A stretch of 64,000 nucleotides of DNA. Origin: Gimesia sp. Lineage in GTDB: Bacteria; Planctomycetota; Planctomycetia; Planctomycetales; Planctomycetaceae. The stretch spans positions 232,001-296,000 of the forward strand of contig PAJV01000016.1 of assembly GCA_002706765.1 (NCBI GenBank). Reading direction: 5' to 3'. The position numbers were made by a program, and so were the translations under genes. Below, piece by piece: positions 24,988 through 60,957 of the stretch (the first letter of the stretch is position 1; the number at the start of each line of letters is the position of its first letter). The notes beneath the pieces were generated by a model. It saw nothing but the letters and a program-made list of their open reading frames with translations, did no database searches and was not told the origin of the DNA.

Positions 24988-25366
24988 TCTAACGGTGACA
25001 TGACCTTACCCGGGAATCATGTGGCGTGATGTGCATGAAGCCGACATACAGGTCCGGTAGATTTCATGTAACCTTCAACTGATTTCGCAATTTCTCATCC
25101 CGATTCGAGTCGATACAGAGCCATTCTGTCGTTCTGGTTTTTTCTCGATTGATCCCGGTTGACAATCCATTTCTGACGAATAAGATCGCACCGAAGGTAA
25201 GTGCTATGGCATGGATGCCTTTACAAATTATCTCACTGAGATCGAGTAAGCCGACAGGACGTCGCCACTTGCCTCGATATCTACCATCGGTGAACCAGGC
25301 TTCAATCGAAATCGGAATCGCGAGAGGATCGGATTCAGATTTCACATTTGGGAAAGGAAACCCAGA
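24988..25366. other. intergenic region upstream of the CsrA-REC gene
   Basis: About 380 bp. A 93-codon minus-strand frame is open here but has no recognisable feature, so I leave it out. The region presumably holds the promoter of the downstream fusion gene; no strong hairpin was found. Confidence 0.45.
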
Positions 25367-26119
25367 ATGCTTGTGTTATCACGCCGCGCAGATCAGAAAA
25401 TTGTGTTCCCCTCAATCGGTGTCACAGTCAAACTGCTCAAAATCAATCGGGGAGTCGCTAAAGTCGGAATTGACGCCCCACGCGATCTTCAGATTCTTCG
25501 TGAAGAAATCCCTCACACCAAATTACCATCGCCGCATGCTGATGCCTCGGCTGGTTCGACCAGGGCTTCAGACCGCCATGAATTACGAAACCGTTTGAAT
25601 GCAGCCAAACTGGGCGTGCATCTCGCACGTCGTCAACTTCATTCCGGCGATACTGAGAAAGCAGCTGATACACTCGACTTCGTGATCGACGGCTTTCGCA
25701 AAGCAGACGATCTGATGTACGCCATGCAGACCCGACGCCAATCAGCCCTGCTGGTAGATGACGACTGCAACGAACGAGAACTGCTGGCAGCATATCTGAA
25801 AACATTCGGCTTTCAGGTTGAGACAGTGGGCAATGGATCGGAAGCGTTAGCTTACCTGGAAAACCATGCATTACCTGATGTCGTCCTGATGGATATGGTG
25901 ATGCCTGTCTGCGATGGTGCCACTGCGATCAAGTCGATTCGCGAGACTCCTAAAATGCGGGAACTGAAAGTCTTTGGAGTCAGTGGCACAGAACCGAGAG
26001 ACTCTGGTGTGTCAGTCGGTCCTGCAGGCGTGGATGGCTGGTTCATGAAACCCCTCGATCCGGAAGAACTGCTGGGCTGTATCCGGTCTGCCAATCTTTC
26101 CGCATCGGTCACACTCTAA
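25367..26119 (+). CDS. CsrA - helical (DHp-like) - response-regulator receiver fusion
   Basis: 250 residues with three parts. Residues 1-48 are CsrA-like: MLVLSRR, then VGIDAPRDLQILREEI, matching the RNA-binding carbon storage regulator (canonical MLILTRR ... REEI). Residues 70-117 are helical, with HELRNRLN at 71-78 resembling a histidine-kinase H-box. Residues 126-240 are a receiver domain: acidic Asp131-133, phospho-acceptor Asp176 in LMDMVMP, Ser206 and Lys228 (FMKPLD). It would let phosphorylation control RNA binding by a post-transcriptional regulator; this is inference. It is convergent with the CheB/CheR hybrid kinase gene. Confidence 0.88.
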   Translation: MLVLSRRADQKIVFPSIGVTVKLLKINRGVAKVGIDAPRDLQILREEIPHTKLPSPHADASAGSTRASDRHELRNRLNAAKLGVHLARRQLHSGDTEKAADTLDFVIDGFRKADDLMYAMQTRRQSALLVDDDCNERELLAAYLKTFGFQVETVGNGSEALAYLENHALPDVVLMDMVMPVCDGATAIKSIRETPKMRELKVFGVSGTEPRDSGVSVGPAGVDGWFMKPLDPEELLGCIRSANLSASVTL

Positions 26120-60573: not shown

Positions 60574-60957
60574 ATGATGAATACAAACACAACAAGCAAC
60601 ACAGGACAGTGGCGACTGATTGACGGCGACCGGATTCTGGATATGGCAATGGGAGATACGGAGTTTCTTGCGGAATTAATCGAGCTGTTTATGAGTACGG
60701 TTCCCGAGCAGATGTGTGAGATCGGTCTGGCCATCGAACGGAAACAGGCAGAGACCCTGGCGATCACGGCACATGGTTTCAAAGGAACCGTCGCAAACTA
60801 CACCAGAGAAGAGCCCTTTCGGCTGTTACAGACATTAGAAGACGATGGAAAGTCAAATCAACTACAGGATGCTTCTATCAGTTATGCAGCTCTGGAAAAC
60901 GAAATGCAGGAACTGATTAGTGAACTGAATATGCTGATGGCACAGGTGTGCCGTTAA
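60574..60957 (+). CDS. histidine phosphotransfer (Hpt) domain protein
   Basis: 127 residues. An all-helical Hpt domain: FLAELIELFMSTVPEQMCEI, then the phosphorylation site AHGFKGTVANY with His67, and a C-terminal helix pair. It would carry phosphoryl groups between a hybrid kinase and a receiver. The next gene encodes a receiver protein 48 bp downstream on the same strand, its likely partner. Confidence 0.88.
   Translation: MMNTNTTSNTGQWRLIDGDRILDMAMGDTEFLAELIELFMSTVPEQMCEIGLAIERKQAETLAITAHGFKGTVANYTREEPFRLLQTLEDDGKSNQLQDASISYAALENEMQELISELNMLMAQVCR

Follow-up and report, generated by a model that had tools for sequence, protein, structure and literature searches.

A planctomycete protein joining CsrA, a DHp-related helical hairpin and a receiver domain, and its linkage to a CheB-CheR hybrid kinase

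Introduction

Known CsrA proteins are small stand-alone dimers that are controlled from outside by sRNAs or sponge RNAs or by proteins such as FliW. The window analysed here, a stretch of 64,000 nucleotides from Gimesia sp., encodes a protein in which a CsrA domain is joined to a helical segment and a receiver domain, and the question raised by this locus is whether CsrA has been placed under the direct control of a two-component system. An earlier note, made from the letters of the window alone, had read the protein in this way, with phosphorylation controlling mRNA binding, and this interpretation is supported as far as the sequence goes. The fusion is probably a response regulator that binds RNA, its CsrA output being under the control of a linked kinase, possibly by way of a His-Asp-His-Asp relay through residue H71 of the helical segment. 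RNA-binding response regulators and the control of Csr by two-component systems are kinds already known, and the CsrA-receiver fusion is a variant of these. The most unusual part of the system is the helical segment, a hairpin resembling the DHp domain of histidine kinases.

Results and discussion

Architecture of the fusion protein

The features of the locus are collected in Table 1. CsrA, helices and a full receiver were expected in one ORF, and Pfam and the family alignment agree with this. Pfam places CsrA (PF02599) at residues 1–48 with 47.9 bits against a curated cut-off of 27, and Response_reg at residues 128–238 with 70.5 bits against a cut-off of 30.2. These are the only two families found in the protein at E up to 1, ANTAR being absent, and Pfam identifies no HATPase_c in it either. 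The phospho-acceptor is Asp176 and the receiver lysine is Lys228, as had been claimed, and D131/D132 and S206 fill out the site. Among solved structures, residues 1–63 resemble CsrA/RsmA (best E 7e-4) and residues 128–242 match receivers such as PleD. The best 50 rows of a Foldseek comparison of the whole model are receivers or receiver-containing proteins by title, including PhoB (2iyn, E 1.4e-9).

Table 1. Coordinates of the fusion gene, its parts and other features of the window
Feature	Position	Strand	Basis or remark
Tandem long protein, 1023 aa	18680-21751	+	
Tandem long protein, 1039 aa	21868-24987	+	
Leader hairpin, GGGAAAGGAAACCC	25350..25363	+	predicted hairpin, AAGGA in loop over ribosome-binding site; candidate CsrA site on own mRNA
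CsrA-hairpin-receiver fusion gene	25367-26119	+	ATG start, 250 aa ORF
CsrA domain, residues 1-48	25367..25510	+	Pfam E 1.3e-12; R6 in 104/104 and R45 in 103/104 family members
Linker, residues 49-60	25511..25546	+	low model confidence; pLDDT <50 for residues 46-64
DHp-like helical hairpin, residues 61-121	25547..25729	+	helix prediction, HHalign, conserved H71/N75
H71 codon in hairpin	25577-25579	+	
Receiver (REC), residues ~126-241	25742..26089	+	Pfam Response_reg E 1.6e-19
D176 codon in receiver	25892-25894	+	
K228 codon in receiver	26048-26050	+	
Hybrid kinase, 1251 aa	26322..30077	-	CheB, CheR, PAS, HisKA, HATPase_c, receiver (Pfam)
Weak HPt match in 127-aa frame	60673-60918	+	E 2.7e-5; possible stand-alone phosphotransfer protein

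The fusion fails the cut-off of the CsrA equivalog TIGR00202 (39.2 bits against 70.1); it is 250 aa long with two extra parts, so it is not of stand-alone length, and the C-terminal tail of CsrA is absent. The claim that the first 48 residues form the CsrA beta-fold stands in part. The monomer model contains three CsrA strands (residues 11–14, 19–27 and 30–36), and the edge residues are less sure, confidence being middling for 1–10 and low from 46 onwards. The edge strands of CsrA pair across the dimer, which may be why they are modelled with low confidence in a monomer.

The genome that contains the window has 11 CsrA matches, of which the fusion lies in an open frame of 289 aa and the other ten in open frames of 66–134 aa. 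Two of these (L010 and L011) are odd CsrA-like proteins with weaker scores of 35.6 and 34.5 bits. A scan of genome_contigs gave one receiver-only match. In keeping with a planctomycete origin, the genome that contains the window has 135 matches to PF07596, a family expanded in planctomycetes, and none is present in 14 control genomes.

Distribution and conservation

The survey of the fusion across planctomycetes that the earlier note had proposed shows that the architecture recurs. In a sample of 392 genomes of the phylum, 40 of them in the same class, full-length fusions are present in 15 of the 40 class genomes (17 places), and a sixteenth genome (G167) encodes a divergent one, L028. No match spanning the CsrA part is found in the other 352 genomes among the matches listed. 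A profile of the CsrA part and the hairpin, built without the receiver, was then compared with 397 genomes of the class, where it has 100 strong matches, spread over 93 genomes by a count of the search listing. The regions around 96 of these matches and around a few weaker ones were taken, and 107 distinct proteins were extracted, of which 104 (the window's included) have the three-part order of CsrA, hairpin and receiver. They come from 90 of the 397 genomes, a lower bound since G533:C116, G646, G564, G725 and most weaker matches (E above ~8e-23) were left out. Because the same order occurs in one open frame in 103 proteins from other loci, the fusion is not a product of chance or of assembly. 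Family members are 31–57% identical to the window protein. Within the genus the distribution is patchy, with the fusion in 7 of 17 genomes (E up to 1e-20). Among plasmids, 37 Piscirickettsia records have a CsrA match, none of which covers 80% of the query.

The remaining three of the 107 proteins (L106, L107 and L108) are composed of CsrA and hairpin with no fused receiver. Judged by eye, the histidine of the hairpin is missing from L106 and L107 as well; it is present in L108, and a gene with a receiver follows L108 by no more than ~10 bases.

A CsrA match (PF02599, E up to 0.1) is present in all 104 members. The RNA-contact residues of CsrA strands 1 and 5, which we take to be the equivalents of L4, R6/R7 and R44, are not lost in the homologues. 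R6 and G34 are invariant and R45, P15, A37 and P38 are found in 103 of 104; position 4 is L in 87 and V, I, M or F in the rest, and position 7 has R in 73 members and K in 13. In the hairpin, H71 is kept in 97/104, N75 in 94/104 and L77 in 98/104. The counts for H71, R6 and R45 lean upwards because the profile used to gather the family has these residues conserved. The receiver lay outside that profile, and here D132, D176, P180, W225, K228 and P229 are found in every member, with S or T at position 206 throughout. Its first helix is conserved as well (N135, E136, L139, L140 and A141 at ≥90%); in known complexes this face docks on DHp domains. The divergent L028, which was included in the first alignment and stands outside the 104, no longer has the K228 equivalent or the HxxRN motif.

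The adjacent CheB-CheR kinase

The presence of a hybrid kinase with CheB and CheR domains next to the fusion is confirmed by Pfam, which identifies no HPt match in this kinase at E up to 1. In the whole genome there are five CheB matches, three of them in frames of more than 1,200 aa, so the two genes would be adjacent by chance in ~0.1% of cases (an estimate for ~6,000 genes). When neighbours are counted across the family, using only genes of at least 120 aa and treating loci at contig ends as misses, the gene directly next to the fusion encodes CheB and a kinase core in 51 of the 104 cases, and such a gene lies within two genes of 55 fusions. Any histidine kinase lies within two genes of 81/104, and none is found within this distance at 23/104 loci, some of which are at contig ends. 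The fusion is thus genetically tied to a CheB-CheR kinase at approximately half of its loci and to some kinase at most of them.

The CheB-CheR kinase accompanies the fusion within the genus and often outside it. All nine fusions of the genus, found in 7 of its 17 genomes, adjoin such a kinase, with 48–72% identity to the window's for the eight outside its own genome. The ten fusion-less genomes encode no kinase more than 38% identical to that of the window, giving seven genomes with both and ten with neither. Among 48 clean fusion-kinase pairs, the two genes run in the same direction with the kinase first in 25, converge as in the window in 16 and diverge in seven, and the median gap is 180 bases. 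Pairwise distances over these 48 pairs are correlated between the fusion and the kinase core (r 0.83) and between the fusion and the CheB-CheR part (0.80), beside 0.75 between the kinase's own two parts and at most 0.18 with permuted labels; species history contributes to all three correlations and could raise them alone.

Relationship of the hairpin to DHp domains

Two long helices are predicted at residues 61–92 and 96–121, the first of which contains H71 of the sequence HELRNRLN. The earlier note had called these helices kinase-like. HHalign comparison of the hairpin with the DHp domains of the kinases from the same loci gives a probability of 96.5% (E 1e-9, score 43.5) and places H71 on the phosphorylated histidine; 20 column shuffles reach at most 15.1 in score and 6.1% in probability, and the reversed profile scores 11.6. 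At the profile level, then, the hairpin is related to histidine-kinase DHp domains.

With Pfam, a search of the window protein at E 1 finds no HisKA, so the gathering score is not reached. In the family HisKA matches 19 of the 104 members (E of 0.1 or lower, best 1e-4), which makes it the third commonest Pfam family among the matches listed. TPR was considered as the identity of the hairpin and rejected, since each TPR model matches at most 5/104 members (best E 7e-4), fewer and more weakly than HisKA. In whole-protein Pfam searches PDE8A_N matches 18/104 (best 2.8e-6) and Caudo_TAP 4/104 (best 1.7e-4). The top row of the structure comparison is DesK, three entries of which align residues 57–120 of the model on 174–237; matches of this helical hairpin are unspecific, rubrerythrins and DesK scoring equally.

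In histidine kinases the residue following the phosphorylated histidine is the general base for autophosphorylation, and the T or N at +4 serves the phosphatase reaction. In the fusions the residue after H71 is variable (D in 24, E in 22, A in 18 and Q in 13 of 104) and N75 is kept, a combination that fits a phosphotransfer or phosphatase hairpin no longer needing autophosphorylation. Over the 104 members, neither HATPase_c nor ANTAR is found among the best 25 of 35 Pfam families.

H71 and the type of neighbouring kinase

For a hybrid kinase with a receiver at its end, the phosphoryl group normally has to pass through a histidine before it reaches the final regulator. Of the 76 fusions that carry H71 and have a kinase within two genes, 71 have one with such a terminal receiver. 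Seven fusions lack H71; five of them have a kinase near, which is receiver-ended in one, and for the other four the nearest kinase is a CheB-CheR-PAS histidine kinase with no receiver. At three loci (L085, L086 and L135) two fusions flank three CheB-CheR genes, with the H71-less fusion towards the kinase that has no receiver (885 bases away in L085) and the H71-bearing fusion next to the hybrid. L087 is arranged similarly with two CheB-CheR genes. The genes between the fusions at these four loci are tandem CheB-CheR-PAS genes, some including kinase and receiver parts and some lacking them.

The nearest kinase lacks a C-terminal receiver next to five H71-bearing fusions, four of which were inspected, L166 being left out. 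The kinase and the fusion are separated by a distinct receiver gene in L157 and L164, in L156 the kinase frame overlaps the fusion gene and seems to be out of register at its end, and in L168 a full hybrid kinase is encoded one gene further on. The association was rejected as a statistic: a Fisher test gives p 0.0004, which was set aside as the H71-less proteins form one clade, and a test of independent pairs on the tree has a single pair and no significance. The association traces to a single change on the tree, hence one natural experiment, and the pattern is suggestive in matching what a relay would predict.

The genome also contains six HPt matches, two of them in frames of only 116 and 127 aa, whose proteins could serve the relay in place of H71.

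The leader hairpin

The ATG of the fusion is preceded by TTTGGGAAAGGAAACCCAGA, which is predicted to fold as a stem-loop (-6.5 kcal/mol for 23 nt) that holds AAGGA in its loop and lies over the ribosome-binding site. A CsrA site is described in the part of PMC10729762 consulted as the motif 'A(N)GGA' inside a hairpin. The literal motif GG.A.GGA..CC is located upstream of 49 of the 104 fusions, and in a first set it stands before 23 of 46 fusion-like genes compared with 0 of 321 other ORFs. For starts that have ANGGA at Shine-Dalgarno spacing, the two inner pairs are both Watson-Crick in 56/92 fusions compared with 9/151 controls, whose starts were guessed. Over three pair positions there are 167 Watson-Crick pairs, against a mean of 128.7 and a maximum of 148 in 5,000 shuffles that ignore relatedness.

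None of the genome's ten other csrA loci is preceded by the literal motif. That the leader hairpin is exclusive to the fusion among csrA genes was nevertheless rejected, as L003 and L010 have the two pairs of the looser criterion; a small hairpin with an AAGGA loop is possible in the L010 leader. A sigma-54 promoter was also considered, csrA being enriched among sigma-54 targets in Planctomycetia according to the portion of PMC12316311 available. A scan for sites like the -24/-12 consensus found them upstream of 33/104 fusions and 219/657 other genes, hence no more commonly, and none upstream of the window gene.

Hairpins of the type GGGAARGGANNCCC also lie directly before the ATG of a few more genes (in the window's own genome, L118, L120, L122 and L125), which encode what by eye is a ParA-like ATPase, as well as two proteins of 501 aa and one of 65 aa. 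Three such hairpin starts recur in 16, 15 and 14 of the 17 genomes of the genus, counted by eye, with or without the fusion. On both strands this pattern has 98 matches compared with 20 for the reversed pattern. The genes led by such hairpins possibly form a small CsrA regulon.

Proposed mechanism and alternatives

In the mechanism outlined here we infer the dimeric form, phosphotransfer and its route, the binding of RNA, the sign of the regulatory effect, and autoregulation. The fusion chain would form a dimer held by the CsrA part and the DHp-like hairpin, and D176 of the receiver would be phosphorylated by the adjacent CheB-CheR-PAS hybrid histidine kinase. Since this kinase lacks an HPt and carries a receiver of its own at its end, a relay through H71 is possible: the phosphoryl group would pass from the kinase His to the kinase receiver Asp, then to H71 and to D176, the hairpin providing the missing phosphotransfer step. 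The phosphorylation state would shift the geometry of the dimeric hairpin and with it the spacing or exposure of the two RNA-binding surfaces of CsrA, so that the repression (or activation) of target mRNAs would be turned on or off. The protein's own mRNA is perhaps among these targets, through the ANGGA hairpin over the ribosome-binding site. Taken as a whole, a full His-Asp-His-Asp relay that ends on an mRNA-binding protein and is closed by feedback through its own leader seems unlikely.

The kinase may instead phosphorylate D176 directly, leaving the hairpin as a dimerisation stalk or as an in-built phosphatase with N75 as the T/N of the phosphatase motif, an alternative that we hold at somewhat under an even chance. 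It is favoured by the variable residue after H71, where autokinases have their general base, by the N kept at +4 in 94/104, by the conserved receiver helix 1 and by the lack of an ATPase domain fused to the hairpin. Yet a pure stalk would not need the H71 found in 97/104 members, nor does it suit this alternative that H71 is kept chiefly beside receiver-ended kinases, which counts as one event only. Quite improbable is a CsrA part that no longer regulates mRNA and has become a module for dimerisation or protein binding, or one that sequesters a partner or a small RNA. The missing C-terminal tail, the low equivalog score (39.2 of 70.1 bits) and one member of 104 without R45 are consistent with such a change, but a pure dimeriser need not keep the arginines, and R6 is present in 104/104, R45 in 103/104 and a hydrophobic residue always at position 4.

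For the leader, the chances are about equal that the hairpin is read by stand-alone CsrA, the fusion then being a Csr target and not self-regulated. In favour of this, similar hairpins precede genes of the genus even where no fusion is present (the 16, 15 and 14 of 17 genomes above), and the genome has ten other CsrA matches that could provide the reader; against this, the literal motif precedes 0/10 of the other csrA loci, two of which have the looser form, and 49/104 fusions.

Comparison with known systems

The 48 N-terminal residues are like CsrA/RsmA/RsmE (PF02599) in carrying the RNA-contact arginines of both edge strands, and unlike them the fusion would have its control built in as a receiver. 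The hairpin may find its counterpart in Spo0B and ChpT, dimeric DHp-type hairpins with a phosphorylatable His that acts as a relay step in a protein with no active kinase domain. In contrast to the fusion, where the hairpin lies between output and receiver, those are separate proteins with a degenerate ATPase-like domain. No CsrA-receiver protein is described in the portion of the open-licence full-text literature covered. Older response-regulator censuses may have a table entry for it, and the architecture may well be catalogued in domain databases.

The BarA-UvrY (GacS-GacA) system is similar in that a sensor kinase is linked to CsrA-type regulation (PMC4682653, in part). Its response regulator, however, activates transcription of the sRNAs that titrate CsrA, a step that would be unneeded in the fusion, where all is in one protein. 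ANTAR regulators such as AmiR, NasR and PdtaR also couple a receiver to an RNA-binding output, according to the sections of PMC12471899 consulted, but these are antiterminators and the output of the fusion is an N-terminal CsrA. A table of the same source gives the label 'orphan RR' to E. coli CsrA, in our view an error.

A covalent CsrA-receiver fusion with an often co-inherited kinase would constitute a direct switch from sensing to translation. If this is true, translation control by phosphorylation would be widespread in planctomycetes with no regulatory sRNA needed, and the locus would offer a simple test bed for phosphorylation-controlled RNA binding, with one kinase, one regulator and one predicted RNA site. 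It is also a pointer to post-transcriptional regulation in bacteria with many csrA copies, such as the genome studied here with its 11 matches.

Other features of the window

Two long proteins are encoded in tandem on the same strand as the fusion gene (Table 1) and are clearly alike by eye. Both have a thioredoxin-like C-terminal part, within which the second and not the first contains a CGPC motif.
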